Origin: Isoetes taiwanensis
Lineage: Eukaryota; Streptophyta; Lycopodiopsida; Isoetales; Isoetaceae
Reading direction: 5' to 3'
DNA length: 64,000 nucleotides
NCBI GenBank assembly: GCA_021234155.1
Contig: JAJEKV010000100.1
Coordinates: forward strand, 2,642,116-2,706,115
A model generated the notes under the pieces. That model had not been told where the DNA came from, ran no database searches, and saw only the letters and a list, made by a program, of their open reading frames with translations. Positions 1 to 45,957 of the stretch are shown one piece after another. Within the stretch, counting starts at the first letter, position 1; each line of letters starts with the position of its first letter. The translations under genes were made by a program, and so were the position numbers.

Positions 1-905
1 CAACAGAATCACCACAAACTGCTCAATGTCAAGTGCTTATAATTTTCTATATGGTTCAGGTGGTGAAGGTTTTAGATCCCTTGCTTTGCTCGCAAAGTCT
101 TTTTCTTGGGGGATGGTATTCTTGGTCTAACCACACGTCCTCGTGACTATCCCTTTCATCCTCATCGCTGTCCCTTCTATCGTTTATTACCATCACTTTC
201 CAAGAGATGCTGGTAGCAGATGAGGTGCCACTCGAAGATCCATACTATCTACTCCGTATGTAAATGATCTGTAAAAACATGCTCCAACTGCAAAATAATC
301 TCCAAACCCTAATAATATTTATTTTATTAAGAATCCTGGCGCAACCCTTGCCTAAGAAATTGTGCAAAAAAAAATTGCAGGACTAGACTTTGAAGATTTG
401 GAATCTTTGCTCTTACTCTGCAATCTGATCCTTAGAAAACTGATGAAGGGCATTCCTGAGTTTCTTTTTGGTTCTCGAACAAAAACTGATGAATACACCT
501 TGTAATGAACCATATGGAAGCTTATGAATTTACCTACTGCCACAGCTTTGTTTTAAAATAGATATTTGTAACCAACAATTCAGCCATAGCAAACTAAAGA
601 ATCTGAAATGTTACAGTGAGCTGCATCCAGTAGATCCATCAGTTCAGAAGTTCTTGGATTTTATCCCATTTCGATCTGTCCAAATGGAATGCATAAGTAG
701 AAAGGGGCAAGTTACCTGTTTGTTCACATCGCTCTGTATAAGTACAAAAATTCGCCTCCAACAGAACAAGCCATTGCCAACCAAAACATCCGATATACTA
801 CAATGAGCAGACAGCTGTAGGCCTGGGCACTAGAAACTAACAACTACTATGCAAAGACGATTCTTACCAGCTTGTTAGAGTTTCATCCAATTCGTCCCAT
901 CGTCT
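1..905. other. No recognisable gene, left edge
   Basis: This AT-rich stretch has no open frame that resembles a known protein and no clear transposon end. Short phrases recur within it, for example catccgatatac-like and agctaaacaagtatacc-like strings, so it is probably old repeat or intron sequence. I see nothing further in it. Confidence 0.4.
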
Positions 906-1018
906 GCCAGCTAAACAAGTATACCATTGCCGCTGCTTTCCTCAAACATTGCCAGCTAAACAAGTATACCATTGCTCTTGCTTAAACAAGTATACCATTG
1001 CCGCTGCTTTCCTCAAAC
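906..1018. repeat. Short tandem/direct repeat
   Basis: A unit of about 40 bp containing ctaaacaagtataccattg occurs three times in 113 bp. The first and last copies share the downstream phrase ccgctgctttcctcaaac. The middle copy is shortened. It looks like local tandem duplication without coding potential. Confidence 0.7.
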
Positions 1019-1632
1019 GAAATTTTAACCACCTTTAAATTTTGCCTCTATTCAACAACTTTTTCAACAGGAAAAATGCTGTTGATGCGCTATTGCATTT
1101 TGGGCGGCGCCGCCTCTCCTCCTCTCTGCACTCTGTTTTTACCCTAGCTGCGAAGAAGCTTCAATGCCCGAGTCGTTTTTCTGGCCATGAATTCTGTGGC
1201 TCCAGTTTTTAATTCCGTCTCCATCTCTGAATACTGTGGTTGAGCAAGAGTTATGTTGTGGTAAATTCGACCCTTTTCCTATTTTAGATCCAGCCAAGAG
1301 ACCCTTTGTTGTAACTAAAGCCGGTGCTTTGGAAACGCTTGTAATTGTAGATGCAGATGAGCCCGCCCCTGTTTTTGCAGAAGGCCAAAAATCTTTATCA
1401 CCATAGCTTCTTCAAATGCCCAATAGAATCTGGTGAAGCCCTGAACAAAAGAAATCAGATTTACTGTCTTCACTCTAAGGTGCCTGAATCTGGCTAAATT
1501 ACAGTTTTAATCCGGCTTGAATCAGACTGGAGCAAAAAGAAATGCAAAGAATCAAGCTCTGAGGAGATCAAGATCCCTCAAGAACCGCTGAAATTTAAAG
1601 CGGATTAAAATTTCGTCCAGAATTTCACGACA

Positions 1633-1761
1633 TGAAATTTCGGAAGAAATTTTTCGGTGGCTGGCGGCGCCACTCAGGCTGCTCCGCCAGGCTCGTGGTT
1701 CCCGCCAAACCATTCACTAGTAGCCACCAAGTCAAATTGAAAATTTCTTTCCGAAATTTCA
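1633..1761. repeat. Foldback element with GC-rich loop
   Basis: The left arm at 1633-1654 (starting tgaaatttcggaa) is the near-perfect reverse complement of the right arm at 1740-1761 (ending ccgaaatttca), about 21 of 22 positions. The 85-bp loop is GC-rich and contains ggctggcggcgccactc. The same kind of loop appears in foldbacks at 2.6, 56.9 and 59.2 kb. A short open frame starting at 1632 lies across it and is not considered a gene. Confidence 0.6.
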
Positions 1762-2614
1762 AGCTGACTGAAATTACTCCTTCCATGTCGCTACTTCAAT
1801 CCGGCTTAGATCATAGCGGGCACCTGCAAAGAAAAAGAAACAAGTAGACCACCTCAAAATTTATTACCTTTTGACTCATTTTTTATCGCTAAATTGTTCC
1901 GTTGAATTGCCTCTGGGATTTTCATGGCCCGCTTACTGCTTTTGCACTCGCATCCACGCCACCCACGACCTGCTTCTCGCACCTTTGCACCGGGCTCTAC
2001 AGTCTTGCGGTTCGTTCGCGGTTACTTTTATTCTCTCATTCTCGGTTCTCATGGGGCTGATGGTCCGAAAGGGGCCGGATTTTCTCTGCACAGATGTATA
2101 GAAAAAACAGAGGATAAGCAAGGTGCAAACAGGGGATTTTTTTTCACTATTCTTCCATCGATCTTTCCCTTTCAGAGCCGATTCCTGTTTTTACTTCCTT
2201 TCTATCTTCTTCCAAAAGCAATGATTCTATCAGTAGTTTTTTTCAGCTTGATTCTTCAGGAGTTCATAGCTTGATTCTTGCAGACGAGTCCAATCCAGCG
2301 AATGAAGGCCTCTTGCAGAGTGCAAAAACAGAGCCGTCACAGGGCAAATATAGGATGTAAACACCATAGCCATGGCTGGAAATAGCAAGCAAAGCACAGA
2401 AATGGCACAGAAACGCCGGAAATGCAAAGCTAATGCTGGAATCAATCAAGAACGGACAAAATTTTGAGGTGGACAAAATTTCGTCGGAGAATTTGAAGGA
2501 CCATAAAATTTCTGAATGAAATTTTGAGCAGACCTGGCGGCGCCACTCGCGGAAACATGCCGGAAAGTACTTTTGGCACGCCGGAAATAGTAGGCCTGCA
2601 ATTGTTTCGTTAAG

Positions 2615-2713
2615 AAATTTCTGCCGGCAGAAAGTTTCGCGGCGCACGCCCAGGCTCGCGGCTGCCGCCGCTCGCCAGGGCTTACGCCACGAAACTTTCT
2701 GTCGGCAGAAATT
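2615..2713. repeat. Foldback element with GC-rich loop
   Basis: The arms at 2615-2639 and 2690-2713 are inverted copies (tttctgccggcagaaagttt against aaactttctgtcggcagaaa), differing at about one position. The loop of about 50 bp is GC-rich (gcggctgccgccgctcgcc). It has the same architecture as the other foldbacks in the window but different arm sequence. Confidence 0.7.
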
Positions 2714-3227
2714 ACCTATTCCAAAATATGTGCTAACAAATTCATATGCAACATGGAGACCGAGAGCTCGTTCCTGCAGCAGAATGAAAAGTGGGGCTCA
2801 GATTCCGCTCGCCAGGTCATGAACAGGTTAAATCCCAAGTCTCAATGTTGTTGAGGGATGGAACTGGGTCGCTGATTCTAGGACCTGCTTCTGGCTAACG
2901 CCCATCGGGGGACCCTGGAATCCACTCCCCAATTTCCATCTCCCAATATGGTTACATCCTTTATGTTATAATAAGTCAATTAAATTCATTCAATCAAATT
3001 TGTGTGCTAATTGTGGTGCTTTAAATATTTTCACATATTTCCTTAGTGGTTGATTAGAGTGATTGATTCCATACCAAAAGGCATTTAGCTTAGTTATGCA
3101 AGGATGCTAGAATTTAGCATCATATTTTTCTCACTTAGCATTTACGAAGTGTTATATGCAGTTGCCCCTTTAGTGGTACATTTTTAACTCCCAAGTGTAA
3201 CATAGGCACCATAATTTCCACAATTAT

Positions 3228-3400
3228 GCTAGGCACCTTTGGTTTGTGTTGGAACGACATTTGATAGATGGGGACACACGCTAATTATTTTGGCATCAAC
3301 CTAGATGCATAAGATTACCAATGCTAGGCACCTATGTTTCGGCTGGAACCACATTATATAGATGGAGGCATAAACTAATTATTTTGGCATAATCCTAGGA
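3228..3400. repeat. Imperfect direct repeat, about 75 bp twice
   Basis: Two copies, at about 3228-3302 and 3323-3400, start with gctaggcacct and end with aattattttggcat. They share a middle of the form ggaac(g/c)acat..atagatgg. The stretch around it (2714-4780) is otherwise AT-rich, without a recognisable gene. Confidence 0.55.
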
Positions 3401-4784
3401 AAAATAACCCATCAAAAAAGGCCTTCTGCCTTTTTTCTTACGAGCGGTCTTTATTTGAAGATATATGTTTGTTTCTTAGTAGTTTTAACATCATGCCATA
3501 GTGTCAAACATCCCTTAGGACATATGCGGGCCAGAAGTTACTCTACAATTCCCAAAATGATCCAAGGGCCTAGAAGTTACCCTACTCAAATGCACAAGTT
3601 CTCAGAGGCCCAAAAGTTAATGCACAAGTTTCCAGCATTTACAGGTTCCCAAATTATGCCCAGCAACACTGGGCACCATTACTAGTAAGTCAATTAAATT
3701 CATTCTATAAGTTTTTTAGTCAAGTTTTTTCGGAGGTTTTAAGTTTTAATAGCATGCAATTTTGCATTTACAAGTCTGGAAAAAGATCATACATTGTGTA
3801 AGCATTCAGCATTTGCAAACTTGCCCTCCAACATGGGTAGGGATGTGGAAGATTATAGGTTCTCAACATTTATTATTGTAGGTCCTTGTAATTCATGATC
3901 AAGAGTGAACACTCAACCATTTATGTTGGGCTAGAGAAATACACATCAATGAATAGAAACAAGTGATATTTGAAATGTTGGCTAAGCCAAAATGAAAAGG
4001 CTTATAATTCCAAGTAGAATTAGTCTTTTACGCAAAAACTAGTGTTGTTTGTGCTTGGAGCATTATGTAGAGTGTACAACCTTAATGATTCCCTGCAAGC
4101 GTAGAATAATTAACATGAACGACCTGAAATAAGAGTGGTCAGCTAGTCATAAGTTCTATTATGCAAAAGAGTCCAATATTCCGTCCATTCTATTGTGGGG
4201 ATTGATGCCCTTTCTGTCTTCGGGGCAACATATGCATATTTTCTTTACTTCCATAGTTACTCAGCCATTCAACAATATTCAATCATGTATTCTTAGGGTG
4301 CATAAATAAAATATGTCATAAATGTTAGGTAATAGCCTGCCTGGAGAGGTAACCGGCCACCTAGCATAAGGTTATTGGGCCGGAAAGAAGGAAATTTAAT
4401 ACCCTCGGTACCTTTGTGCGCGTCGTAGCACGAGCACTGTGGTTTTGAATGAGCAGCATCTTGCAACATAACCATGTGCAGATCGCCAGTGTCGAAGTTA
4501 TATATGAAATAAACCCTACTTTCTACTAGATGGTAAAGTAGAATCGTGTGTAAAAGGCAGATTAGGGAAGGTGTTTCTAAACAATCTCAAGGACTCCCCT
4601 TACCATAAAAAAATACCCGTACTTATTGATCTCAAGTGCATGTATCAAGTGTTTATGGGGCAGAACTCCGCAAGATCCTTGCACCTCCATATAAGTTGAT
4701 AAAACTGCTTACTTAGTAGTTCTACCTCTCTAGAAGTTGTGAAAAATGTTGCAACTTCATATTGTTAAGGTTAATACTCATAAT

Positions 4785-5203
4785 GTCACTATATGAACTA
4801 ACATAAAGCTTGACACAACTGATGGGACAATATCTGACAATATTGGTGATACTAATAGCAACTATGGCCACACAACATTGACATAATTTGTGACAATAAA
4901 GGTGCTATTATATTTGATGCTAATAATAACACCTATAATGTCACTGGTGGGTACTGACATTAATCATGATGCTATCTGTGTAACAACTAGTGACGCTATA
5001 GTTGGCGCTAATAGCAACATCTATAGCGTCATAACAAAATTACTGACACTGTGGGTGACACAAAGTGTGAAGCTATAGGTGACACAAATTGTGACATCTA
5101 TAGCGTCACCTATGTCTAGATGTCACCAATAATGTCATAGTGTATACTTTTCAATGCTCTGGTGACATTTTGATGACATAAATTGACCCCTTCTCTTGTA
5201 GTG
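4785..5203. mobile_element. One end of a CACTA-type DNA transposon
   Basis: The plus strand ends with cttctcttgtagtg at 5203. Its reverse complement begins CACTACAAGAGAA, the classic terminal sequence of plant CACTA (En/Spm) elements. The roughly 400 bp inside this end are packed with short subterminal motifs in both orientations, such as tatagcgtcac, gtgacac and gacaatattgg, as expected for transposase-binding subterminal repeats. The matching second end is not visible to the left, and no transposase is present. It is either truncated or its other end lies outside the window. Confidence 0.6.
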
Positions 5204-5425
5204 ATCATAGCCTTACGGTTAGCTTTATTTGTTCTATTGCATTATATGTGTTTGCTGATATAGTTGTGGAACAAAATACATCAACAAAACATTTAGAGTG
5301 CAAAAGAAATATATTTATATATATAATAGCTTAAGTACAATGCCTTCGGGATCAAGAGTCTAACTATTCTTGAAATCGCCGGTATGATGGGTTATCTTGA
5401 AGAAACTTCTTAACTTGGGCCGTTC

Positions 5426-6780
5426 CTACTGAGCGTCTTGCACCAAGTCTTCTACCCTGCGGTCGGAAGTGTAGGCCGCGGTTACTGCTAGTCTTCCCTG
5501 CCGTCGGTAGGGTACGGCGAAGTCGAAGAGGTCAAGTGCCATCGTTCTCTTGACTAGGATGACATGGTCAACTGTTGGGAGCAGCCGAGCATGCCTGCCA
5601 AAGCCTGGGAGTGCGATGAGCATAAACACTCCTTCTTTGCCCCTTGGGCTGAACTTGCGGTGTATGACCGCTATCCTCCCGTCCAGCAGCAGAGGAAGAT
5701 AATACCTCAGTGACCTGTCCCTGCCCGCTGCTGTTGATTCATCGTCTGCTCGGGCACCGGTTCTATGTCTTCCCCCATATTCATCGACGTCGATCTCTGA
5801 GAGGTCTCCGTAGTCCCTGACTGTCGATGTGATTCGCCTCAGGTCGATTTTGCCTCTTCTCTCTGGGGGAGATGGTGTCGAAGAACTCGGCATCAAAATG
5901 TTCGTGAACTTGCCACGTATCCCCATCCGTTCCTGGATGGCGTAGAATTCTTCTTCAGACGGCAGATCCCGAGCTTCCATCATTTGCCGGATGCTGTTGT
6001 ACGCCTGGATATCTGAAGTCGACTCCCCGGTGTAGGTGTCGGATTCCCTTACCTGGATTGGGAAGTCGGAAGCTTCCCGGTCGATGAAGTCATCCAGATC
6101 TGGTTGTTGCCGCAGAAGGTACAGCAACTCGTCGAGTCGATACTCCCTGTCTCTGCATTCGGGAAGATTCTGGATGTCGCTCAGGAGCAGGTATTCCTAG
6201 CCATTGATGATGATGGGGGCTAGGCTTGTGATACCTAGCCCGAGCGGGGGAGCGATCCTGAGGGTCTGCCGATCCTGCTCGAAGATCGGTATCTCCTGCT
6301 CTGCTAGTTGCCGCTCTTCTTCGGGGTCGAGCTCAACGTGGTCTTCGTCATCCGAATCAATCGCTTCCTCTTCGGCTCTTCCTTCTTGCTTCGCTTGATA
6401 CTGCAATAGGAGCTGACCTTCTGCTGAGGAGGCTAGGGGGTCTACGTCCATGGGAGGGATAGAGGTTTCCCCGATGGGGTTCTGGGCACAGTGGGAAAGA
6501 AAGATGGCTAGGGCAGCGGTGTAGGAGAAATACTTGGTCCTATTAGCGGTCAAGACCATGTAATCTGGCAACCTAAAAGCTTTGTTGGTCAGATATTTGG
6601 CAATGTTGGGGACGTCATCTAAGGCTGCTTGGAGGGATGGCCTGGGAACAAAATATCCCTGCATAAGGGGGGCTGTACTAAGGACGGTCCTACCCTAGCT
6701 TGGAACTCTATCATGACTTGCATATAGGCTGGGGTTGCCTGCAGAGCGCTGTACCATCGCCTAAAGTCTGAAGTTGCCAT
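5426..6780 (-). pseudogene. Second ORF of the H3-carrying retroelement, unknown function
   Basis: The ATG at 6780 (start MATSDFRRWY) opens a frame of about 451 codons ending at 5426. Two lesions break it. One is a single-base change in a C run near 6674, which shifts the frame just before the MQGYF segment. The other is an in-frame TAG at 6197-6199, after which the same frame continues to the end. The protein has a globular N-terminal part, a very acidic middle (a DSDDEDHVELDPEEE stretch around 6340), and a C-terminal part of mixed composition (LPLLLDGRIAVIHRKF, LLPTVDHVILVKR). I recognise no domain. It is not a protease, RT or integrase. It follows the H3-like ORF on the same strand with about 700 nt between, and that spacer holds two palindromes. 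It could be a capsid-like, adaptor or chaperone partner of the H3-like protein, but this is a guess. Confidence 0.6.
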
Positions 6781-7063
6781 GGATCTTGAGTGAACTAGAC
6801 TAACAAACAGATGCTGAAGCGCCTCAGGGAGCTGAAAGATCGCCTAAAAGTCGGGAGCAAACTTGTAGGATACTAAGTGAGAAATGGGGGCCTATTTATA
6901 GACAAGGGGGAAACCCTAATTTTTGGATGGCTTGGGAAAATCTTGGGGTTGGGCAAATCTCATCTACTTTGAGGTCAAAATGGGGATTGGAAAGGTAATT
7001 TGAGGATTTAAGCATGAATGGGACTATCTAATGAACCTATTGCAACACATTTGAGGTCAATTG

Positions 7064-7128
7064 GAGGTGGTATGCTAGAGAAATTGCCAACCTAAAGCTT
7101 AGGTTTGAGTCCTGACGCATACCGTGAG
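7064..7128. repeat. Palindrome copy 4 (left arm decayed)
   Basis: The core aacctaaagcttaggttt is a palindrome. The right arm ends in cgcataccgtgag as in the other three copies, but the left arm has drifted. It lies in the spacer between the two retroelement ORFs. Confidence 0.6.
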
Positions 7129-7268
7129 ACATTTGGCTCTAATTGGTCAAAACTTATCCAAACAAGATGAACTAAGGGTCAAAATATGATAATCTCGCCG
7201 AGATATGCAAGATTGACCCCTTACTTGGTCGATTTGGAGGTGTTTAGGACTAGTTTAGGTGTGAAGGT

Positions 7269-7330
7269 CTCATGGTGTGCGCTGGAGGCCGAACCAAAGT
7301 TTAGTTTTGGGTCCTGGCGCATACCGTGAG
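7269..7330. repeat. Palindrome copy 3
   Basis: This near-perfect inverted repeat runs from ctcatggtgtgcgc to gcgcataccgtgag. Its AT-rich centre (ccaaagtttagttttgg) is itself partly palindromic. It lies downstream of the H3-like ORF and about 490 nt upstream of the second ORF. Confidence 0.8.
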
Positions 7331-7474
7331 ACATTCCTCACTAATTGGCCTAAAAATGTCCGATTCGACTATAACAAATGGCAATTATTGCTAATTCAAC
7401 CTAATTAACAACAATTATGCACTCATAATTTACATCAAAACACTTTGTATTAACAAAATTTATTATTTACAGAA

Positions 7475-8743
7475 TTAATGAGGTTCCCCTTTAATGTGAC
7501 TGGCCAGGTGCATGTCCTTCTTCATTACGGTCACCCTCTTGGCGTGTACCATGCATGCTGTGGAGTCTTCAAAATGTTGCACTAGCTTCTGCTCCGCTGC
7601 TTCTTGCAAGGCTAGCAGCATCTCGCCCGTTACCCTCATGCTGGTGTCGAATTCTTGCACGACCTCTTTTACGAGCCTGGCGAAGGGTGCACGTGGAATT
7701 AGAAAGTCATAACTTTCTCTGGAAGTGTCGGATCTCCCTGATTGCTCGATCAGGTTCGAATTGGCTTTCCTTTTTGCTGGCTTCTTCGGGGGAATGCGCT
7801 TCTCAGGAGGTGGCTTCAAAGTCTGCTTCTTTGACGGCCGTCCTCCTGCAACAAAAGTGACATTGTTCGCCTGATAGTAGGAGTTGTAAGCCTCCCACTT
7901 CTTCATGAACTCCTGAACTTCTTCTGGTAGACCCTGATAGGGTCTATCACGTAGGACTCCCTGGCAGGTCGAGGCAGCTTCTTGGGGTCCTTGTCCTTCT
8001 CCCAAGTTGGATAGGGTGGGGGTACCTGCACTTGCTGATCCTGCTCTGTCTGCTCCTAGGCTGTGTGATCCTCCTCTGGGGGCTTGGAGGAGCTCCCTCC
8101 TTCTAGGTTAGGGTTGAAGTCTTCATCCTCTGAGTCGTCCGAGGGTAGGGGTTGGTCGACCGGCCGGTCCTCGATGACGATCTTGGTCCGAGGGGTCTTC
8201 TTCATCTTCCTCTTGGGCTGCTCCACGTTCTTGCCCTTGAGCTTCTTCTTTTCTTCGGCTTCCTCTGCCTCCTTTTCTTCCCTCTTCCTCTTCTTCTCTG
8301 CCTTTTTCTTCTCCCTGCGCTGTTCCTTCGCCTCATGCATCTTGATCCAGGCTTCAAGCTGCTCTTCATCAGTCGGCTCGAGGGTGGGCTCCTTCTGCTC
8401 CTCCTGTGCCTTGGCCTCCCGCTCTTGCTCCGCCCTTTCTTGCTTCTCCTTGTCCATCTGCTCGACGACTCGTTGAATTTCGTCGTCCTTTTCAATTTCC
8501 TCGAGCACTTCCGTTGAGCCCTCCGATTGCACCTCTGCTACTTCGTCCAATTCCTGGTCGATGGTGTCGGCCAGCTTCTCTTGTGATTCCTGCTCGGATC
8601 CCTGCTCGTGGTCGGTCTCCTGCAGTGGTCTCCCCGATGACGACTGCCTCCTCCGCTGAAGACGCCTCCCGGCACTGCTGCACTTGGGCGCTGGCTGATT
8701 CACCTCCTCGAGGAACCCGAGCAGTCTGTTTGATGCGGGCCAT
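7475..8743 (-). pseudogene. Giant histone H3-like protein (decayed ORF)
   Basis: The ATG at 8743 gives MARIKQTARVPRGGE, matching 10 of the first 14 residues of histone H3 counting the initiator Met (R2, K4, Q5, T6, A7, R8, G12 and G13 kept; T3 to I; K9-S10 replaced). About 250 residues follow, rich in Glu/Lys/Gln and likely coiled coil (about 8560-8200), then a basic Pro/Lys stretch (about 7820-7760). The C-terminus (7726-7478, 83 residues) is an H3 histone fold: PFARLVKE, LALQEAAE, FEDSTACMVHAKRVT and KDMHLA line up with the H3 core, about 36 of 69 positions identical by my hand alignment. H3 Cys110 and His113 equivalents are kept. The protein would be about 423 aa, against 136 for H3. Lesions: a frameshift near 8630, an in-frame TAG at 8056-8058, and a compensating frameshift near 7925. 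It sits where gag would be in an LTR element. An ordinary H3 variant gene is unlikely given the LTR, PBS and palindromes around it. Confidence 0.85.
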
Positions 8744-8957
8744 GTCTTACTTTACTTCAATCGGAGGTCGGTGCCCAAAAATTGCCTCAAAAAGGAGCAA
8801 ATCTCTAGATAGGGAGCCTACAAATTGGGGGGGGGGGTCTAGGTCTATTTATAGTTTGGGCAATTTTAGGTCAAATTCTAAGTTACTCTTTTTCATGTGT
8901 CAAAGCACTTATTAACCTAATACATATACTTACTTCAGCGTTTTCTAAACCATTTGT

Positions 8958-9020
8958 CTCATGGTGTGCGCTGGGGGCCCGAACTAATATTTAGATCAAG
9001 GCTCTGGCGCATACCGTGAG
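8958..9020. repeat. Palindrome copy 2, in the retroelement leader
   Basis: This inverted repeat runs from ctcatggtgtgcgc to gcgcataccgtgag, with the centre cgaactaatatttagatc. It lies in the leader between the primer-binding site and the H3-like start codon. Confidence 0.8.
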
Positions 9021-9169
9021 ACATTTGGCATTTTAGACTAAATTATATGATTTCTAGCCATATTCCTAGGAGTGTGACATACAATTCTAGCTAAACCTTA
9101 CCTTAAAACTTGATTTAGCATATTAGCTTGTTAAAATTCATCATGTTTCAAGGTGATTATGGCCAGTAT

Positions 9170-9232
9170 CTCACGGTGTGCGCCCAGGGCTTAACCTAAA
9201 ATTTAGGTTTGTGCTCTGGCGCATACGGTGAG
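9170..9232. repeat. Palindrome copy 1, in the retroelement leader
   Basis: This inverted repeat runs from ctcacggtgtgcgcccaggg to gctctggcgcatacggtgag. The centre aacctaaaatttaggttt is a near-perfect palindrome. It begins about 200 nt after the primer-binding site. Confidence 0.85.
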
Positions 9233-9429
9233 ACATTCGTACCTTAGGTCAAAATTTAGTTCAACTTTTTAGTTTTCTTAGTTTTCAATTCTTCTAACTG
9301 TTACTAGCTTAGCATAAACTACAAAAAATGAAAAAAAAAAATTCCCACTTTTTCGAGGTTTGAGGATCCTACTAAGTTAGTACTACTAGGAGCATGGTCA
9401 GTGCTTTGCTCTTGGTCACCAAGAACATT

Positions 9430-9441
9430 GCTCTGATACCA
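9430..9441 (-). promoter_or_regulatory. Primer-binding site, initiator Met tRNA type
   Basis: On the minus strand these 12 bases read TGGTATCAGAGC, the standard plant LTR-retrotransposon primer site for initiator methionine tRNA. It lies one base from the end of the LTR at 9443, which fixes the element's orientation as minus. Confidence 0.9.
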
Positions 9442-9442
9442 C

Positions 9443-11037
9443 TGTGACGTCCCCTACTCGTATACGGTGCACTCACCTTATACAAACAGGAGTTCATCCC
9501 CCATACCAGCTCCATGTTGATACAAGGCCCTCTACGTGTCACTGCAACCTTGATGAGTTCCAGTGGGAAGAATGAAGGGGTCATTTTACCCTGTCTCCCT
9601 TCAGGGCCTACCTAGCTGCAGAAGCATAAACATACATGTCAGTATATATACATCAATATCACATGACCATCACGAAGGATGGCTCACCACATACCTGCAT
9701 AGACAAAGATCAGCACATCACATAGGGAGAATCTACCCAAGGCTCAGACTCGAGAGGGATGACTGACGGCTTGGGCCTCCAGAAGTCATTGCAGACAGAA
9801 TTCATGGCAATGGATTGGCTGGCAATAGAACATGGCTTGGGGTAGTCCACTCCATCCGCCCCTCCTGTGCACACTTTGCAGAGTAGGTTGAAAAGTGTTG
9901 GGACCCGACTGTAGCCCGCCGGATGCATAGCCAAAGGGGCTATTCCTGGGTTGCATCTCCCCAGTTTCGATGGGGCAGGTAGGGATCGCTCCCACCAGAG
10001 GTTAGCATGCTGACTCAAGGTGACTAGAGGGCCACTGCCCGTACTCAACTGAACTCCATGGAAGGTGTCCACCACCCCAAGAGTGTCGAACCCAATGCAA
10101 AGCCCGCACGCAGTGGCAGAGCATTAGGCCTAGTCACTATAGTCCCCGATAGGCTTTACTACCAGAGGGACGTGATCATGAGTCAGGACATGTACCTCCT
10201 TGTAAGCCAGTCTGGCCCCTTCACCCACAACCAGGTGTGGTTCTTGTACACAGGCCGAATTTAATAGTGCATTAAAGAGGGTTGGCTAGGAGCATCATAC
10301 TACTAGGCTTTTAAGGCCTCTACCCCCCTTCCCAATACAATGAGTCCACAGAGATCATCATCACATACATATCATAGAAGAACTAAAGAATGAGATTTAA
10401 TCTAAATCACAGAGTTAGGTTCTTTAGTTAAGGCTTGGTATCTAGAGATCTAGATGGCTGCTATGGGCAAATCAATGGGCTAAACCTACTTACTCTATGT
10501 CTTGAAGGCGGTTTAGATTATTGAATTGACAAAATACCTGATCCCTGGCTTGCTCCTCCTGCTCTGAACTCGACCACGCTGCAGAACTGCTAGAAGATGA
10601 AGTTAGAAAGGGAAGCTGATGAGCTAGACTGTTCAGACAGACTTTGGGGGGCGAGATTGGCTCTTGGATCAAGCAAAACAGAGCCCTAGAAGGCTGTGGA
10701 TGAAAATAGAAAGTTAGGGTTTCCTATACTTATATAGACTAAGGGTTAGGGCTAGGGTTTCCCATTATCCCTTGAGCATGTGGGATAAATTGTGTGGCCC
10801 ACTTGCCTTTATTAACTAAGTGGCATAAAGTGTACACATGGGTAAGTGTGTACACATGGATAAATGTGCACATGAATAAATGTGCACGTAAATAAATGTA
10901 CACACCTTGCAAGTTGCCCCCTAGGGTGCTACTTGCTTGGCTACACGTCGGCGTACACGTCAATCGGGATGGCGTGTACGCGTGACGAGGCAGTATAGTA
11001 TACGTCCTGGGACCGTATACTGTGCTGGAACGTCACA
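9443..11037 (-). mobile_element. LTR (5' LTR of the H3-carrying element), 1,595 bp
   Basis: The LTR is bounded by TGTGACG at one end and CGTCACA at the other, a perfect 7-bp terminal inverted repeat with TG...CA ends. It is directly adjacent to the primer-binding site. It contains no credible coding sequence. A diverged relative lies at 21139-24908. Sharing of short phrases such as ccaaggctcagactcgag / ccaagctctgactcaatg between the two supports the family assignment. The partner LTR of this element is not in the window. Confidence 0.85.
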
Positions 11038-16638: not shown

Positions 16639-19312
16639 CTACACTCGGGAGGCAATAAGGGGAGTGCGGGTCTTAAGGTAAGCTGCAGCAGCAGCCACTC
16701 CACTTCCTAAGGTCACAGGGTACCCAACATCCTGAAGCACAAGCTCCACACCGGCCAAAGCTCCAAGAAGTTGTAACTATAAAAGATTAAAAAGCACAAG
16801 AGTGTCAGTAATTGTATTGTATAAAGAAACCATCAACTTGTCATTCCCTATAAGAATAAAAAAAGTTGCATTGTGTGCAACTTGCCATGTTAAAAAATGC
16901 ACTTGTGACAAACAAAATGGTAATGAGTAGAGAAGACCTCATTGATAAAACCCAAATGGCCAATCCGAAAAACTTTGCCAGCAACCTTGTTCAATCCAAC
17001 TCCGAGGCTGAGATTGTATTTCTTCCAGGCAACCTTCACAACGTCTCCACTGTCGATCGATGGAGGGACTACAACTGCGGTTACTGTATCACTGTGCCAT
17101 TCAGGTCGTTGGGTACATATCTTTAATCCCCAAGCTTGAACAGCTAACCTGGAGCACAATACAATTCATTCAGTTAAATTAGCAAATTAAGGTAGACTAG
17201 TTATTATAATGGGAGATTTACTATGAGATCTCAGAGAGTATATTTCACTAGCATAACTACATAGCATACAGTACATGACTCTAAGTAGGCTGTAACTCGT
17301 TATTGATTTTCCTACAACTTGGGAAAGTTCATTGAGTAGCAACCACATTCATATGAAGAACATACTTTGCCATAAACCTAAGCTGAGGATCAGATGCAAG
17401 ATATGCATGCAAAGGTAAGTTCAAACTGATCAGAACTAGGGTATGTGCACCAAACATAGAAAATGATAAGCCGCATTGTTTAAGTACCTTGTTGCTTGGC
17501 CAAGTCTGTTGTGCCTGTTTATGACGTTGTCAAGGCCTTCTTCAAAAATGAGATCGAGAGAGGCGCGCAGGGCATAGAGCAGCTGGCTTGAAGGTGTATA
17601 AGGCCAGTAGCTTCCTGCCTTGTAAAACTTCATATAGTCTGCCCAATCGAAGAAAACCCTAACAGACTTGGCAGTTTTTGCTGCTTCCAGTGCCTTCGGA
17701 CTTGCGCACACAATTCCTAGTCCTGTTGGAAGTCCTAGCGCCTTCTGTGATCCAGTAAGTGCTACATCTACTTTCCATTCATCCATTCGGAAGTCTATAG
17801 CTCCAACTGATGAGACTCCATCTACTAACAACAGTGCGGGATGCTTGAATTCATCTGTTGCAAATACACGAGTAATCAGCTTAGTAGTCTCTATATTCTG
17901 AGAATTTATTTAAGCTAATGAACAAGATTAGCTGAAAGCACTGCAATATTCTTGCAGAAAAGCATGCTTATTGATAGTTTACAGGTTTATAATGGGTATA
18001 GCATTCTGAGAAATCCTTTAGTGGAAAGAACCAATATGAACTCTAAAAATAGAAGAGCATTATGTTCAAGTCTCTCTTGGAACATTTAGGGGACAGTCAT
18101 CTATCCCCATAGGATGTTGCCATGTGGTATGATGTACAAAATACTAACTATCTATCTATCTATTCCAGAAGGAAGGTAAGCAACATATGTGCTTATCATT
18201 AACCACTGACACAAGGATTTTCAATCCTTTATATGTGCTAAGACACGAGGATTTTGAGTCCTTTGCATTCTTTTCTTTCCTTTTATAAAGGTTATGAAAA
18301 TGCAGACAAAGGATTTTAGTATTACCAATAACGCTCCTGATTTCTTTGATGTTGTTGGTAACTCCTGTGGACGTTTCATTGTGAACAACACATACAGCTT
18401 TGATGGAGTGGTTATAATCTGCTCTAAGCTTTGCCCTCAATACATTTGCATCTACTCCTGCTCCCCAGTCACATTCCACTACATCCACATTGAAGTTGAG
18501 CCTTTGCATTTGGTCAATCCAAAGAAGACTGAATTGGCCAAATCGAAAACTTATTATCTTATCCCCTGGGGATAATGTGTTTGTCAAGGCACTCTCCCAT
18601 GCTCCAGTCCCTTACAGTCACAAATTGGTGTATATTCAGCAAAACTTCAAATTCTGAAAGCAATGCTTTCATGCAGATACTTGAATGCTATTGTGATTAT
18701 AACTTGGATGGAAGTATAACTTTTTATAAACGTTCAAGAAATGCAGGGCGATGAAGATTATCAGTTCACTCTCAAGAATTTTCATTTTTATGAACATCTC
18801 AGACTTCATAAGAGGAATGTATCTCAAATCAGATAACTCAAAATTGCAACACAGACAGTATTTTTGCAAACAAATGAAAACAAACATCAACAAAAGGGTA
18901 AGAAAAAAGTAGGAAATTATCCAATTACAAAGTCTTATGAAGATATATCAAAAACTGATCGACAAAGTAGCTTACAAACTGGTTCAAATGCATAAAGTAG
19001 TAACAAAGATCACAATGCAAAGGACCAAGCAGAAAATAATGAAATTCATGAAGACAGAAAAGGAATGTCCTACAAAGTCATTCAAATGCAACAAGAAAGA
19101 ACCATACCAGTGGTTGGAAAAATGAAGGAAGTAGCAGAATGGGTCTTAAAGAGGCGCTTGACATCTTCAATGACAGATTTAGAGAGTTTTGGAAAGGCAG
19201 GAGAACGATGATCCTCATTATTTCTGCTGAAAGCCTGCTGGACCTGCTCAGGGACATTAGTAGGGCCTGGAACGAACAGATGGTTTCTTCCGGGGCCTGG
19301 GTAGTACTCCAT
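16639..19312 (-). CDS. AGT1: Serine:glyoxylate aminotransferase, peroxisomal
   Basis: This PLP enzyme of photorespiration converts serine and glyoxylate to hydroxypyruvate and glycine in leaf peroxisomes. Five exons on the minus strand, all with GT-AG borders: 19312-19108, 18610-18326, 17854-17488, 17148-16938 and 16776-16639. Together they are 1,206 nt, giving 401 aa, the length usual for plant AGT1. The start MEYYPGPGRNHLFVPGP matches the family N-terminus. Joins restore PTTGTGAWESALTNTLSPGD and FKHPALLLVDGVSS. The Schiff-base lysine is K201 in LTGSQKALGLPTG. The last three residues are SRV, a PTS1-type signal (SRI is the common form in this family). No lesion is seen. Introns are 139-497 bp and ordinary. 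No promoter element was identified. Confidence 0.96.
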
Positions 19313-24100: not shown

Positions 24101-24908
24101 GGGAAGCTTGTTTACATCTTTAACTTCATCTAATGTTCTAATAAATAAATGGTCGACAAAATCCTAGAAAATGACAGCATAGCATGTCCATTTCTAGATG
24201 CTAAATTTGGATTGAGACTAGGGATTGGTTCTTATAGCTCTGCTTATAGAGCAAAGTCAGGTGCTTCTCATATTAACCTACAGAACTAAAGTCAGGCATC
24301 ATGTACAGAAAATTTTTGAGTGTTTATTTTACTTCCAATTTAGGACGGAATTTAGGGACCTGCAGATGTTTGATATCTACATCTATAATCTATAACCTGT
24401 CTACAATTGGTTACTAACATCTGTACATATTTTTCCATCGAATATCATAGTGTTACTACTTTTGCGCTTGCTCTTGCCCTTGCAACTACACCATCCTATA
24501 TAAGTTTTACATCATAAAATTCTACATGTTATCTTTGGAAATCATAGTAATGACTCTAAATTTTGTCATGGATCTTACCATTTAGTTTCACCTATATCAC
24601 AAATTTAAATAGTAATAATTAATATAAATTTCTTACAATTCAATGTCAATCCTAAACCTTATGTCTTGTATTAGTAAGTCTTATATTATTAAGTACAATA
24701 CAGTAAGTTGCCAATGGTCACCATGCACTCCCATACTAATGTATCTTCGTGTGGCCGTCACGTATAGGCTCTCGTCATGCAACCTACCTACATGACATGC
24801 ATGTGTTTACACATGTATTAACCTTGTACATGTCATCTAGATGGCATCTACTATGATGTTGCAGTATAATGTATGTATTCATGGCATATAATCTACTGGA
24901 ACATCACA
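21139..24908 (-). mobile_element. Old, interrupted LTR related to the one at 9.4 kb
   Basis: The left end tgtgatgtccccttactc and the right end ctggaacatcaca correspond to the two ends of the LTR at 9443-11037 (tgtgacgtcccctactcg and ctggaacgtcaca). Internal stretches also match in order (near 21410-21470 against 9725-9785). It is 3.77 kb rather than 1.6 kb because later insertions split it. Right of it, the minus strand reads aaggtggtgagaa, a purine-rich tract where a polypurine tract would be. That would make it the 3' LTR of an element extending to the right, but the corresponding internal region is not recognisable. Confidence 0.6.
21901..22890. mobile_element. Insertion with ggaacgggaacg-type ends
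   Basis: Both sides of this segment carry clusters of ggaacggg/cccgttcc words: ggaacgggaacgggaac near 21940, and gggaacggcggccggaac plus several further copies in 22740-22880. It interrupts the older LTR. No transposase is visible between the ends. A short-motif-ended non-autonomous transposon is the best reading, with superfamily unknown. Confidence 0.4.
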
Positions 24909-30037: not shown

Positions 30038-30649
30038 GACAGTTACTTCATCCTAAAGTGGCAGTTCTTTGGTGGCAGATTCTTCATAGGTGTCTGCGGG
30101 TTAATGTGCTTGTCCATAAGTTTAACCCTAGAATATCAAATCAGTGTCCAGTATGCAAGCGTGGATCTGAGACCATTGAGCATTGCTTTTTCATGTGTGA
30201 ACACCTTAGACAGGTATGGGACTGGTTGTTTTCCCTTTTTCAGGTTTCACTAACAAGTCAACAACTGCTTTTGGCAATTTACCCAAGTACCTGGTCAGAG
30301 TTACAAGGCCGGGGCTTTTCATCTAGCAAATGGGATGGTTGCTTTGGACTACTTGGAAAAGACGAAGATTGGTAATCTTCAAAGGTCTGGATGTGGCAGA
30401 TAACCGTGTTCTCCAAGAAGCTCAAGGTTACATTGTAAAGTCGTATCATTGTTCTTCACTTGCCCCTCGCAAGAGGCAATTGATTTTTGAGGAGTTTTGG
30501 GATGTGCACTCTTATGCTCAGGCAGGTTGCTTCACTCGGTGGGTCTCCGCTTATCCGCTGAGATTTTATTCCTGTCTCTGCATTTATACTTGTATTTGAC
30601 TCTTTGATTGAATAAAGTCTGACGTCCTTCAACAAAAAAAAAAAAAAAA
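30038..30649 (+). mobile_element. 5'-truncated LINE with zf-RVT domain and poly(A)
   Basis: The plus-strand frame from about 30045 reads LLHPKVAVLWWQILHRCLRV, then CPVCKRGSETIEHCFFMCEH, the zinc-binding domain at the C-terminus of plant L1-type RT proteins (C-x2-C ... H-x4-C). It is followed by an aataaa signal at about 30611 and a poly(A) of about 20. The 11-bp target-site duplication aaaaaatctgt lies at 30027-30037 and 30650-30660. The RT core is absent through 5' truncation. Confidence 0.8.
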
Positions 30650-30655
30650 AAAAAA

Positions 30656-31156
30656 TCTGTAAATCAGAAGAAAGGGTTAAGAGAATTGTCTGCAATAACA
30701 ATACATCAAATATTTACACAAATTAACTCGCGCTTGGCGTGACACCTAAATTACTAGGCTCTGCCTAGGATTAATGCCTACACCACGCTACGCGCGACAG
30801 TTTGCGCGACATGTATGGACAATAGTAATATGAAATAGATAAGAAAGGCATATTACTTTATCAAATTAAGTATGCGCGCTGGGCGCGACTCATACAAAAT
30901 TATCCAATATTGCTGTTTGTGACATAACAGGTCTCCACACGTCAGCACATATACCATTTCGTATTTGTTGAATCAGTACAAATATATTTTCGTGATTCCA
31001 ATCTCCGCAGTTTTTTTTTTGTTCAATACTTTTTCTCGCGCAATGTGTTACCTAACCGGTTTGATGCATGTTAATGCTACCAAGGGAGTTCATGTCACGA
31101 GCAAGGCTTGGCCTTGAGCCTCACCAAAGCCCGGATATGGCACTTCAAAGACATAT
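30656..31156. repeat. 501-bp direct repeat, copy A
   Basis: It begins tctgtaaatcagaagaaagg and ends cacttcaaagacatat. It is nearly identical to copy B at 33172-33672, differing in a handful of bases and one or two single-base indels. It has no TG...CA ends and no primer-binding site, so it is not an obvious LTR. Confidence 0.9.
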
Positions 31157-31169
31157 CCCGAAAGCCACC

Positions 31170-32788: not shown

Positions 32789-33171
32789 TGTTACTGGGCA
32801 TTTTTGCCTCCTAGAAGAGCCGTTCAGTAAAAAAATTTTCTGTTTTCATCAGGCGGCACAATATTCTTGGGCGCAAACCCTAAGGGTATATCGATGGCTT
32901 GCCCTAAGAATAAAAACTTGGATATGCCCTAAGGGCAGATATTATAATTCATTAAAACTTACCAGATATTATGTCTCAGAATCTCCTTCCTCCATTAAAA
33001 ATGGCGAGATAGTATGCCACATGTATGATGTCATAGTAATTGAGACACTCTCATATGTTTCCCAATGTGAGGCACATTCCAGAACCAATATGACTTAAAG
33101 TTCCCCATGTGAGAGTTCACAATCAAGAAAGGAATGTTAATCAATAATTAAAAAAAAAATAATAATAATAA

Positions 33172-33672
33172 TCTGTAAATCAGAAGAAAGGGTGAAGAGA
33201 ATTGTCTGCAATAACAATACATCAAATATTTACACAAATTAACTCGTGCTTGGCGTGACACCTAAATTACTAGGCTCTGCCTAGGATTAATGCCTACACC
33301 ACGCTACGCGCGACAGTTTGCGCGACATGTATGGACAATAGTAATATGAAATAGATAAGAAAGGCATATTACTTTATCAAATTAAGTATGTCGCGATGGG
33401 CGCGACTCATACAAAATTATCCAATATTGCTGTTTGTGACATAACAGGTCTCCACACGTCAGCACATATACCATTTCGTATTTGTTGAATCAGTACAAAT
33501 ATATTTTCGTGATTCCAATCTCCGCAGTTTTTTTTTGTTCAATACTTTTTCTCGCGCAATGTGTTACCTAACCGGTTTGATGCATCTTAATGCTACCAAG
33601 GGAGTTCATGTCACGAGCAAGGCTTGGCCTTGAGCCTCACCAAAGCCCGGATATGGCACTTCAAAGACATAT
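33172..33672. repeat. 501-bp direct repeat, copy B
   Basis: This is the second copy of the repeat at 30656-31156, in the same orientation, 2.0 kb away. It is preceded by an A-rich (aat)n tract where copy A is preceded by the LINE poly(A). Confidence 0.9.
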
Positions 33673-34330
33673 TCCCATGAAATTCTAGGGAATCTTGACA
33701 AAATCTTCATATGTAATTTGACTTTTTATCTTGACCTTGATGCAATATATTGGCTTCACCTCATAGATTGGCTTTGATAGAACTACGTGGCTGCACTTTC
33801 ACTTTTGAAGTAGGTTTCATGGATTCGCCCACACATGCATTCCCTATATGAGATTTGATACAAATGGCAATGGCAGGGTAGGTACATTCCAGCGCTCCAG
33901 AATGCAGGGTAAAGATCCAGAATGCTGGGTAGAAGTGATTGTAAAATCTTGATGCCATTGTTTTTTTATGTTAACATTCTTTCAAAAGAAATGCGCCACA
34001 TGGCAAGGCACAATTGGCGGACAAGTGTGGAATGCACCTACCGTGTGTACAAGTCTTGAAATCCACCATGGCCTATATATAGCGATAATAGTAACGGAAA
34101 GGATCATTGGGCTTCGTTCTGCCCTGTCCTCCAATCAAAGCATGCCACATGGCAGTTTTTCTTTACCTGAAAAGAGACCAAGAACAGGAGCGATGCCCAG
34201 CGACTGCTTCAACGGATCTACTCTGCATTCAGACGTTTTTACCCTTGATTGAGTTTTTACCCCAGATTCGAAAATTTTACTCGCGATTCAAATTGCGAAA
34301 CGAAGCCCAAATGATCCTTTCCGTTAGGGC

Positions 34331-40003: not shown

Positions 40004-43000
40004 TCATATTGGGTCTGCAGCAATGATGGCAAGAGGCCATATAATTTCCTCCTTAAAGATTAAGGAGTTTCTACCCTTCCACATTCTCCACATGAGAATA
40101 TATCTTCTCCACTCAATAGGGTTTTCAGGGAAGAAGAATTCTGTGATATGCATATTAGAAAGGCCTGGAATGTTCGGGCTCAGATTCAGCCAGACTCCGT
40201 AACCCATTCTCCCCCATAGGCACTCTTTAAAAAGGTGTGCTTCATCTTCTTGATCCTGCAAGCATCTAACACAGATATCAGAGTTAGACATATTAAGCCT
40301 CCATCTCTTACTGTTTGTGGCAAGGGCTTTATGCCAAAGTTGCCACATAAAAGCTTTGATTTTAGGATGAATTGGGCTCTTCCACATAAATTTCAGTTTT
40401 TCGAACCCCCCTGTCAGTTCGATGTTCCATTTCGAATGAATGGTAACTTCTTGGTCTCTATTGAGGTACCTCGTAAGCTAAAGTGACTTTTATAACCACA
40501 AAACCCATTAATGTGCCGTAAAACATTAGTATCATGCCAATCTCCATAAGCCAATCTTTGAGTAATACTATTGAAAAGTCACCGAGTCATCTCCTAGATC
40601 TGCAAGACTGGAATCTTGGTAAACAAATTCATCCATAATATCACTTATGTAGATAACTCCCCGTTGAGTCCATTGCTTGGCTAACTTAGGAAAGTTAGTG
40701 GCAAGACAAATGTTAGGGTTATCCGTAATCGAGAAGGGCTCCAAAATATAGGTCGGGTCCCGTGAAAGTCCTTCTTTCCAAGTATACATACCTCTAACCT
40801 TCAACCATGCCCTAATCCACTTCTTAATAATTAAAGGCATATTGGTAGGGATAGTAAAGTCGAAGTAGATACTATGAGGAAGTCGTGATATTAAGATTTC
40901 TCCAGCCAAAGGGGTGGCATTTCTTAATGTAATAGGAGATGAGAGTACTCACAGGGTGATTAATCTGGTTATTACAGGCCCTAAAGAAGTACTTTGCAGC
41001 CAAAGCAGTGGCCTGCTTCTCAATGTTTATGACCCCCAGACCCCCCATTCTTTTGTGCTTGCAGCATTCTTCCATAGAAATAGGAATCCAACATCTTCTG
41101 CTTGATCCACCTGCTATAAACCTTCCAATGATGCTCTGCATTTTTGTCAAGACTTTCTTAGGGGCCATAATGATGGAGGATTGATAGACCTGAGAGGAAG
41201 AGATGACCGAGTTCGCCAGAATAGCTCTCCCATTTTTGGATAGAAACTTGGAATTAAGGGAGTCAACCTTTTTATAAAATTTATCAATTAAATCCTCCCA
41301 AAGATCACAAGCATTAACTCTAATAGCAAAGGGGATACCTAGAATTTTAGTTTTAGTATTAGGGGAGAGATACATACAACCCAGTCTTGCTGCAGCAAGC
41401 TCATCCTCCTCTTGATGCCTCGAAATCAACTTGGTCTTGACAGGATTGATTCTACATCCCGAGCATTTGCCAAATTCTTCCAGAGTGGCCAGAGTATTCT
41501 GGATGGATTGGTCCTCCAAATGTAGAAATAAGAATGTGTCATCTGCAAAGTGGACATTAAGAATCTCACCATCCTCCTGAGAGGGAAGCCTAAGACCCTT
41601 GATTAGGTGAAGATCCTTTGCTCTTTTAAGGTTGCTATTTAATCCTTCCATTACAATAAAAAAAAGGAAAGGAGCAAGAGGGCATCCCTGTTTGACCCCC
41701 CTTTTGATGTCAAAAAAAGGGCTACATTCACCATTAATGAGAACAAAGAGATCTGAATTTTTAAGGATGCCTTGGAAGATTGAGATTATCTCCTCGAGAG
41801 AATCCAAATTTCCTCTGACAAAGACCAAAGAAAGAAAAGCCCAACTTACAATATCAAAAGCTTTTGTGATGTCCAAATTTTGGAGGCCAATTGACCGGTT
41901 GGAATCTTTGGCCCAGGAGATACCCAAAGATGCAAAGCAGAACATTGTCAAGAATATACCTTCCTCTTAGATAAGCACTTTGAGTGTTACCGATAACTTC
42001 CTCCGGATAGGTTTAAGACGAAGCAGCCATAGTACCCGAAATTAACTTATACACCACATTGGTCGAGATATTGGTCATAGAAGTCGAGAACGTAGTAGGG
42101 AGCTCCATCTTCGGATAAGAGCAATTAAACTTGTGTTGATCCCGGCTGTCAAGCTGCTTGGTGATCAGGAATTCATTGGCCAAAGAGACAATGTCCATAC
42201 CCAATATGTCCCAAGACTTCTTGAAGAACTCAGCTGGGAGGCCATCAGGGCCTGGGGTCTTGCCATTCTCCATCTCCTGCAGAACTTTCAACATTTCCCC
42301 CCAGGTGAAGGGCCTAGAAAGAGTGTCATTCATGTGCTCAGTAACCTTCTGCTGGATAGACACAAAATTTTCAATGTCTTCTCTACTTATATTTTCCTCA
42401 GTTCCCATGATTCTGGAGAAATGAGTTTTGGCAGCACATTTGAGCTGTGTGTCGTTATCGATATTGTTGCCTTCCCAAAGAATGCTATAGATATGATTTC
42501 TTTTCACTCTTCCCTTAGCCTTAATGAAGAAGTACTTAGAATTGCTTCTCTCATCTTCCTTTAACTCCTTTACCTTTGCTTTGATCTTCCAACCCCTGGC
42601 AATTCTTGTTTCTTCTCTTTCGATTAGGATCTTGATCTCATCCTTTTGTTGTCCACTAGCCGAGTCTAACTGAGTTCTGAGGTCCTGCAGATGGGCAGTA
42701 TTACTTCTATGGATCTCTTTCCCCCAAATCTTGAGCCAATTCTTGATCCTCTTAGAGACTCTAACCCACCAATCCATCCAACCTCTATTACCCCTAGGCT
42801 TAACCTTCTGAGAGATGATCTGTTGAAGGTTATGCAAAAAGTCATCCTGATCCAAAAGATTAGTGTTTAATTTAAAATAAGAATTCCTCTTTCTCTGGGG
42901 ACTATTACCACATATGCTAATAAGCTGGGGGAAATGGTCAGAAAGAGTGTAGTTGGTGAGGTTAGTGACCCTAGTGCTGTTACACCAAAGGGATTCACTG

Positions 43001-43629
43001 AGATAGAACCTGTCATGGAGGCAGCAAACAGGCTGAGCTCTGTGATCATTCCAGCTATAGGAGTGAGGAATAACTCTGGCGAAAGAGAGGTGGTGAGAGT
43101 AAAGGAGAGCATTCCAGCTTGAGAATTCATTGTCAGTCAAAGGTCTGAAGTTGGCGCTCCTCATATAGCTATGAGTAACCATATTAAAATCACTTGCTAA
43201 AATGCAATCATCATAAGGAATTCTCTCAAGACTTCTATTAATTACATCCCAAAGGCCAATTCTATCAGGGGGCTGGTGGTATGCATAAACATTAATAAAG
43301 ACAATTCTTCTCATTCCAACTTTTCCATGGATAATCTGCCATCTCCTACTATTGTCATTAACCATCTGAATATCCTCCATGTTGAGTCTGTTGTTCCAAG
43401 CAATGGTTATGCCTGCAGAAGTGTTGTTAGCTTTAAGAGACCAATGCTGAAAGTTGACAGGCAGAACATCTCTGATTACATAGTTAATATTATCATCATG
43501 AATTTTATGCTCTTGGAAAAAAATAAAATCTAGATTCATAGAGCTTAGGCAAACCTTTAATCTACCTCTCTTGTTATTCGAATTGATGCCTTGGATGTTC
43601 CAAGTAATGCCTTTAAGACTTAAATCCAT
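40004..43629 (-). pseudogene. LINE ORF2: endonuclease, reverse transcriptase, zf-RVT
   Basis: The ATG at 43629 starts MDLSLKGITWNIQGINS, an AP-type endonuclease (FFQEHKIHDD, VFINVYAYHQPPDR, LASDFNMV, TLSDHFP over about 43600-42890). The RT follows: NGKTPGPDGLPAEFFKKSWD near 42260, NTQSAYLRGRYILDNVLL near 41980, LDITKAFDIVSWAF near 41870, KRGVKQGCPLAPFLFF near 41700, and catalytic FADD (in place of the usual YADD) near 41550. The zf-RVT domain is at about 40387-40200 (CVRCLQDQEDEAHLFKEC). At least four frameshifts (near 42010, 40900, 40560 and 40400) break the frame, so no active protein is made. Its ATG lies inside the end of ORF1, overlapping by 17 nt. Confidence 0.9.
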
Positions 43630-44868: not shown

Positions 44869-44943
44869 ATTTTGCTCCTTGATGTCGGGTACGCTTATGG
44901 CGTCGCTAGCTAGCACAATCCGGTCGGGTGAAAGTAACCATTA

Positions 44944-45636: not shown

Positions 45637-45657
45637 AGTGGAATCAGACGAGGAAGG

Positions 45658-45957
45658 GATCAGAGACAAGAACCGACTGAAAAGAAAGAAAAAGAACAGG
45701 AAAAAAAGGATCTATGAGGGGGGGGGAAAGAAAGGGGGGAGCGGAAGATCCGAAAAAGGGAAAAAAGGAAAGCAAGAATGATTGGAAAGGAATGAAAATC
45801 TGCTTAGGCAATGAAGAGAGGCAGGCCAGACCAGAGTCCCCCGCAAGGATCTAATCGGGGTAAGGGGTCCCATCACCGTCGAGGCAAATGAAATCGAAAA
45901 ACCAGAAAAACCAGAAATCATAAGAAAAGGAAAAAATGGGGAACCAAGAGTCGACAT
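45658..45957 (-). other. Pyrimidine-rich spacer within the LINE
   Basis: On the minus strand this 300-nt spacer between extra ORFs a and b is C/T-rich (for example ttccctttcctttttcccc-like runs) and ends in ttctttcttttcag, a sequence like a 3' splice site. It could be an internal promoter, an internal ribosome entry region, or an intron remnant. An open frame through it (45957-45712) reads as low-complexity Pro/Phe/Ser and is not counted as a gene. Confidence 0.4.

Follow-up and report, generated by a model that had tools for sequence, protein, structure and literature searches.

A broken copy of an abundant chromovirus-like LTR family in Isoetes taiwanensis, with an H3 histone fold encoded ahead of gag-pol

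The locus and its histone-like reading frame

The window, that is, the whole stretch of 64,000 nucleotides of Isoetes taiwanensis DNA that was analysed, carries on its minus strand one damaged copy of a chromovirus-like LTR element, whose family is abundant and has, ahead of gag-pol, a first open reading frame (ORF1) with an H3 histone fold. The closest relatives of this copy are referred to here as branch D, and the other copies as branches A, B and C. In the direction of the element, the features are the following:

9443..11037, minus strand: 5′ LTR of 1595 bp, with the ends TGTGACGTTCC...GGGGACGTCACA
9430..9441, minus strand: primer binding site TGGTATCAGAGC, one base past the LTR
9168..9234: palindrome 1, an imperfect stem-loop in the leader (fold z -5.6)
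8956..9022: palindrome 2, a stem-loop in the leader (fold z -5.5)
8845..8854, minus strand: TATA-box-like CTATAAATAG, 102 nt ahead of the ORF1 ATG
7475..8743, minus strand: ORF1, a broken copy with H3-like tail, acidic/coiled insert and H3 fold
8702..8743, minus strand: H3-like N-terminus MARIKQTARVPRGG, with K4 retained and V at the K9 position
7478..7807, minus strand: H3 histone fold region (Pfam PF00125, residues 67-171 of the 7475-8005 frame)
7267..7332: palindrome 3, in the gap between ORF1 and ORF2 (fold z -5.3)
7086..7159: degraded palindrome copy 4 (fold z -1.0)
6892..6901, minus strand: second CTATAAATAG box, 112 nt ahead of the ORF2 ATG
5367..6780, minus strand: ORF2, a broken copy with weak likeness to the A/B/C ORF2
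5190..5203, minus strand: terminus CACTACAAGAGAAG of a DNA transposon, presumably CACTA-like, nested, running left and foreign to the H3 element

The LTR and the primer site, both recognised in the initial annotation made from the letters of the DNA, are real, and a partner LTR (97% identical, on the same strand) is found beyond the window at C909:2634405-2636000, so that the window element has two LTRs and spans about 18.7 kb. The element is interrupted at 5203-5190 by the transposon end. On the minus strand of positions 1-9498 only histone-fold Pfam families passed the cut-off and gag-pol was not found. The Rfam and tRNA scans gave 0 matches each.

ORF1 had been taken for a single reading frame over 7475..8743, which does not hold: there are frame changes near 8701 and near 7930 and a TAG at 8058-8056, and the alpha-N segment LIEQSGRSDTSRES, when set against the REIRHFQRS of intact relatives, appears to shift out of frame and back. 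The two ends had been read correctly, given that the frame starts with MARIKQTARVPRGG (8743-8702, minus strand) and finishes in an H3 fold; the 7475-8005 frame matches the Pfam Histone profile PF00125 with E=1.4e-23 (83.9 bits, curated cut-off 26.4) and solved H3 chains in the PDB with 7.6e-21, and four A/B/C proteins reach 138-149 bits against the same profile, also over the curated cut-off. AlphaFold gives a weak model for the window piece (pLDDT 64.9, pTM 0.32), the best PDB match of which is a nucleosomal chain at E=3.9e-3 and TM 0.22.

Outside this genome, one search for protein homologues gave 5 hits from 161 candidates and another, with 74 candidates, gave 53 at E <= 1e-5; the matches listed were H3, its centromeric form and further proteins with a histone fold, aligned over the fold. 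The plan of tail, insert and fold was not seen in the outside homologues listed nor in the 14 sequences inspected, and a scan of viral contigs found nothing. Centromeric H3 (CENH3) is distinguished by a lengthened loop 1 and a divergent alpha-N, and this identity was rejected, because loop 1 of the element proteins has the length of H3, whereas the centromeric hits bear insertions there, and alpha-N is mostly retained in A/B/C and D. A canonical H3 tail (ARTKQTAR with K4, K9 and K27) is not present either: D keeps K4 but has V for K9 in 6/7 tails and no ARKS in 7/7 frames, and A/B/C are without the tail tip.

Each ORF of the window is preceded by two copies of the palindromic stem-loop, one of them degraded in the case of ORF2, and by an exact CTATAAATAG 102-112 nt before the ATG. 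This motif has 3 matches in the window as against 0.18 expected, and the arrangement looks as if each ORF owned a promoter module; a search for an exact form of the palindrome motif did not find it in the first 9.9 kb of any of the ten A/B/C stretches described below. The window ORF2 matched no Pfam family, and of 7999 candidates from outside this genome that were scored against it, none reached E <= 1. One of its pieces aligns with the A/B/C ORF2 by hhalign (E=2.7e-4 over 219 columns, with a probability of just 41.5%) and the other shows no significant hhalign match to it, which leaves the link of D to A/B/C through ORF2 a weak one; the structure model of ORF2, for which no alignment was used, is of no value (pLDDT 35.8).

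The family in the genome

The genome searched comprises 1,658,258,908 bases in 1110 contigs. The Pfam Histone profile gave 8705 first-look candidates, and the 150 that were scored all lay above the cut-off; a 176-residue piece of the window gave 10184, with E <= 6.1e-58 in all 150 scored (the window itself among them), and neither total is a copy count, since host histones and fragments are included. Of the scored hits, 36 of the 150 from the profile and 20 of the 150 from the window piece lie in frames that reach 400 residues or more and have no stop within the matched part, and the eight best profile hits (L001-L008) read as canonical host H3. The copies studied further were picked as the best or longest hits, a choice that is biased towards conserved ones.

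Ten A/B/C copies, picked for long frames, were taken as stretches of 19.8 kb. An LTR pair surrounds ORF1 in seven of them, and in 7/10 the primer site of the window element recurs behind an LTR end of like type. Divergence across the seven pairs (K2P) is 0.027-0.104. Exact 5-bp target duplications accompany four pairs, and in the remaining three, one has 4/5 bases alike, one is offset by a base and one has an end that was not located; a polypurine tract stands ahead of the 3′ LTR in six pairs, the start of the seventh 3′ LTR not being located. The window LTR is 63.7-73.5% identical to the LTRs of seven A/B/C elements over 100-598 bp. By its LTR pairs, primer site, polypurine tract and target duplications, the family is one of LTR retrotransposons.

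In the four A/B/C copies scanned with Pfam, Retrotrans_gag/Ty3_capsid was found in L011 and L023, protease in L011, reverse transcriptase (RT) in L011, L014 and L020, and RNase H, the integrase zinc domain and a chromodomain in L014 and L020, two A-type copies whose chromodomain matches have E=2.4e-8 and 3.3e-9; under the curated cut-off were the integrase core rve of the same two copies (28.8 and 30.6 vs 32.6 bits) and a weak zinc knuckle in one of the two gag frames scanned. Judged on the A-type copies, this set of domains places the family among the Ty3/gypsy chromoviruses. The H3 frame had been assigned to the position of gag; in the relatives, gag-pol lies downstream of ORF1, and in the majority of those read past an ORF2, the frames of which align in six A/B/C copies and stand downstream of ORF1 and ahead of gag where a gag frame is seen. 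In L011 gag-pol comes directly after ORF1, without an ORF2 frame of 150 residues, and no Pfam family matches the ORF2 of L023.

Across the family, the ORF1 protein has roughly 410-460 residues. A near-canonical H3 fold is kept in the 30 A/B/C copies fetched, with 78-83 of 94 positions identical to host H3 in the 10 copies counted; in seven D copies, the figure is 44-50 of 93-94. The A/B/C proteins (for example, L009:4458-5834, L015:4436-5785 and L027:4602-5834) bear before the fold a shortened internal stretch resembling the H3 tail, which has GGK in A-type copies, is altered in B and C, and is without the ARKS motifs of K9 and K27. ARKS is missing altogether from 11 of 12 A/B/C proteins, and the only one, at residue 263 of L027, is upstream of the tail-like stretch. 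By our own assignment, a K occupies the place of H3-K4 (M-x-x-x-K) in 12/12 A/B/C starts, the other residues of the tip being different.

Seven D copies were taken, likewise picked for long frames. It had been a question whether tail and fold ever share one intact frame, and in four of these copies (L051, L053, L054, L055) a single open frame runs from the Met of the tail to the end of the fold; of the others, L049 has ACG for ATG, the tail of L052 is interrupted by a TAG, and in L050 the frame is open from a point past the tail. The tip reads MARTKQTAR in L051, L053 and L055 and MARTKETAR in L054, and ARTKQTAR identical to host H3 is present in L049, L051, L053 and L055. In the seven D tails read, window included, position 4 is K in 7/7 and position 9 is V in 6/7, L054 being the one copy that retains K9; ARKS occurs in 0/7 D frames. 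That the H3 ORF is present in further copies of the LTR family is likewise confirmed: when 150 ORF1 hits are compared with 43 LTR hits, at least 8 D ORF1s, that of the window among them, are accompanied by an LTR on the same strand where one would be expected, a lower bound given that the best 40 LTR candidates were scored. Five of the eight have the 5′ LTR 1091-1440 bases upstream of the match, and for the others a 3′ LTR lies downstream at a distance of up to 25 kb; an LTR on the opposite strand within 25 kb was found for 0 of the 150 hits among the same 43 LTR hits.

Selection and origin of the fold

Selection was measured as Nei-Gojobori proportions, for which the pairs are not independent. 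Over the fold of the 30 A/B/C copies, pN/pS is 0.058 within A (300 pairs, pS 0.39), 0.019 within B (6 pairs) and 0.125 between A and B. Among the 12 long copies, the values within A are 0.07 for the fold, 0.20 for the tail-like stretch, 0.22 for the N-domain and 0.39 for the linker, and within B (3 pairs) 0.03, 0.17, 0.27 and 0.23, respectively; in D (21 pairs) they are 0.12 for the fold, 0.26 for the part before it and 0.34 for the insert, so that insert and linker range over 0.23-0.39 across branches. Residues 1-9 of the D tail have 0.06 (15 pairs, pS 0.75, nine codons only), and the first residues of the other branches 0.06 within A, 0.61 within B and 0.70-0.76 between branches, with just 6-8 synonymous sites. 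To judge from these ratios, the H3 fold and the tip of the D tail are under purifying selection; the choice of copies can lower pN/pS, but in the absence of constraint it would hardly yield such ratios where synonymous divergence is so high. Open frames in many copies, LTR pairs and selection between copies that is purifying (fold pN/pS 0.02-0.07 in A and B, 0.12 in D) thus agree with the initial annotation in that the H3 ORF is part of the retroelement; of its interpretation, the element-borne and selected H3 ORF stands, and the gag position has to be given up.

C110, H113, R116, V117, T118, K122, D123 and L126 are constant in 37/37 folds, and K115 in 36/37, positions whose structural roles we take to be those in ordinary H3. 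S87 and E105 are changed in 30/30 A/B/C folds. The D folds have lost R63 (replaced by P), Q68, R128 and R129 in 7/7 copies and K79 in 6/7, and for this reason D may not form ordinary nucleosomes.

In the tree, the A/B/C folds group together close to host H3 (support 97/88), and the D folds make up a separate long branch (100/100). Forcing all 37 element folds together is not rejected (p-AU 0.207), and a single capture as opposed to two is, on these sequences, neither shown nor rejected.

What the element could do with a histone

Given that it belongs to the element, stays open in a good number of copies and evolves under purifying selection, the H3 ORF probably works for the element, and a selected H3 carried in this way suggests that jumping genes alter chromatin to their own advantage. 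In the reading that we prefer, and to which we would give slightly less than an even chance, the protein is a variant H3 which, paired with host H4, forms nucleosomes that keep K4, lack K9 and oppose silencing. From an encoded and selected histone, this would require that ORF1 be expressed, that its protein enter the nucleus, that the fold pair with host H4, and that the product be put into nucleosomes on the DNA of the element (new cDNA or provirus) or at target sites, with the coiled insert in D, or the N-domain in A/B/C, perhaps binding the partners that target the protein to the element. On such nucleosomes the K4 mark would be possible, and methylation of K9 and, as its motif is missing, of K27 would not; since plant transposon silencing relies on the latter methylations, copies could stay transcribed, or permissive sites be marked. 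The conservation of positions presumed to face H4 and DNA, together with that of the D tail tip, the loss of most K9 and the scarcity of ARKS, fit nucleosomes of this kind, markable at K4 and unsilenceable through K9. Against this preferred reading, the starts of A/B/C differ from ARTKQTAR, with the K4 place alone common to both, and their first residues are conserved within A but neither within B nor from one branch to another; the K9 of L054, the residues lost from the D fold, the weak model of the window piece and the bias in the choice of copies also count against it.

An unlikely alternative is that the histone steers integration, the H3, either within chromatin or, together with H4, as part of the pre-integration complex, guiding insertion in concert with the chromodomain of the integrase. 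Chromodomains read H3 tails (PMC3350952), and the integrase of the family does end in one, as seen in two A-type copies. However, these two copies are all that the chromodomain evidence covers, and the D tail is mostly without K9, a usual chromodomain ligand.

It is rather improbable that the fold, alone or with host H4, serves for packaging, condensing RNA or cDNA in particles or during transport to the nucleus. A basic DNA-binding fold that largely keeps R69, R83 and K115, which we take to be DNA-contact positions, would lend itself to this, and histones of viruses exist; but an H3 fold without H4 is unstable, the family has a gag apart from ORF1, which shows a capsid domain and, in one frame of the two scanned, the weak zinc knuckle, and packaging leaves the conservation of the D tail tip unexplained. 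This tip, with the lowest pN/pS of the D protein (over nine codons), would be accounted for by a decoy, in which ARTKQTAR mimics the H3 tail and titrates the readers and writers of the K4 tail, the fold helping in solubility or dimerisation only; we think this improbable, as the fold is also strongly conserved in D, A and B, and the exact tip is missing from A/B/C. Finally, a host H3 pseudogene piled up by chance on a retroelement, an idea that the several breaks of the window copy might invite, has a negligible probability and is refuted by the 150/150 scored genome matches at E <= 6.1e-58, the long open frames, the purifying selection, the constant spacing of ORF1 and LTR, and the LTR pairs with target duplications.

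To return to the reading in terms of nucleosomes that keep K4 and lack K9, its more far-reaching form is possible and somewhat more doubtful: the family would make its own K4-competent, K9-blind nucleosomal H3, which would replace host H3 on the DNA of the element and stop the silencing loop, and, as part of the same tentative idea, the chromatin state would be self-encoded and inherited with the element. Elements of the VANDAL type encode VANC, which is not a histone. As a transposon-encoded protein that counters silencing, VANC is a precedent for the effect that the element H3 may have, although it differs in being sequence-specific (PMC10398659).

Canonical host H3 (L001-L008) resembles the element H3 in the fold and in the ARTKQTAR tip of D, and differs in that the latter has some 300 extra residues, has mostly lost K9 and is borne by a retroelement. 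Core histones are also found in viral or selfish genomes, such as the H4 of bracoviruses and the histones of marseilleviruses, but these belong to DNA viruses, whereas here a single H3 is fused to other sequence in an LTR retrotransposon. Tat/Ogre elements have an ORF1 upstream of gag, an extra frame comparable to that of the H3 elements, and to our knowledge it has no histone fold. With chromoviruses in general, the family has in common the LTRs with 5-bp duplications, the primer site, gag, protease, RT, RNase H, integrase and chromodomain, and it differs from them by the addition of an ORF1 with an H3 fold and, in the majority of copies read, of an ORF2 before gag. The passages on chromovirus chromodomains in PMC3350952 do not mention an element-encoded histone; searches of the open-access PMC literature found no report of a retrotransposon-encoded core histone, and in the main text of the genome papers of I. 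taiwanensis (PMC8566536) and I. sinensis (PMC10541799) the word “histone” occurs 0 times. The chromovirus element is of a known kind, and the histone module is the new part.

If a core histone can be encoded by selfish DNA and kept under selection in a family this abundant, parasites would have access to the set of histones in the nucleus, and histone gene counts and H3 antibody data would be affected in such genomes. A natural H3 mostly without K9 would add a further party to the struggle of transposons with silencing, and would offer a direct test of which residues of the H3 tail silencing requires.

The rest of the window contains a plant L1-type LINE at 40004-45711 (domains RT, DUF4283 and zf-RVT), and a frame at 17436-17909 that matches a class-V aminotransferase and, perhaps together with 18156-18611, looks like what is presumably a serine-glyoxylate aminotransferase gene. 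Two direct repeats of 527 bp (30634-31159 and 33150-33675), 97.9% identical, 2.5 kb apart and starting in A-runs, show no LTR-type ends. Positions 24826-24908 have a weak likeness to the start of the element LTR (68% over 85 bp), and 24684-24829 is 81% alike to 52015-52163; the segments 24684-24908 and 51978-52163 are probably relics of related elements.
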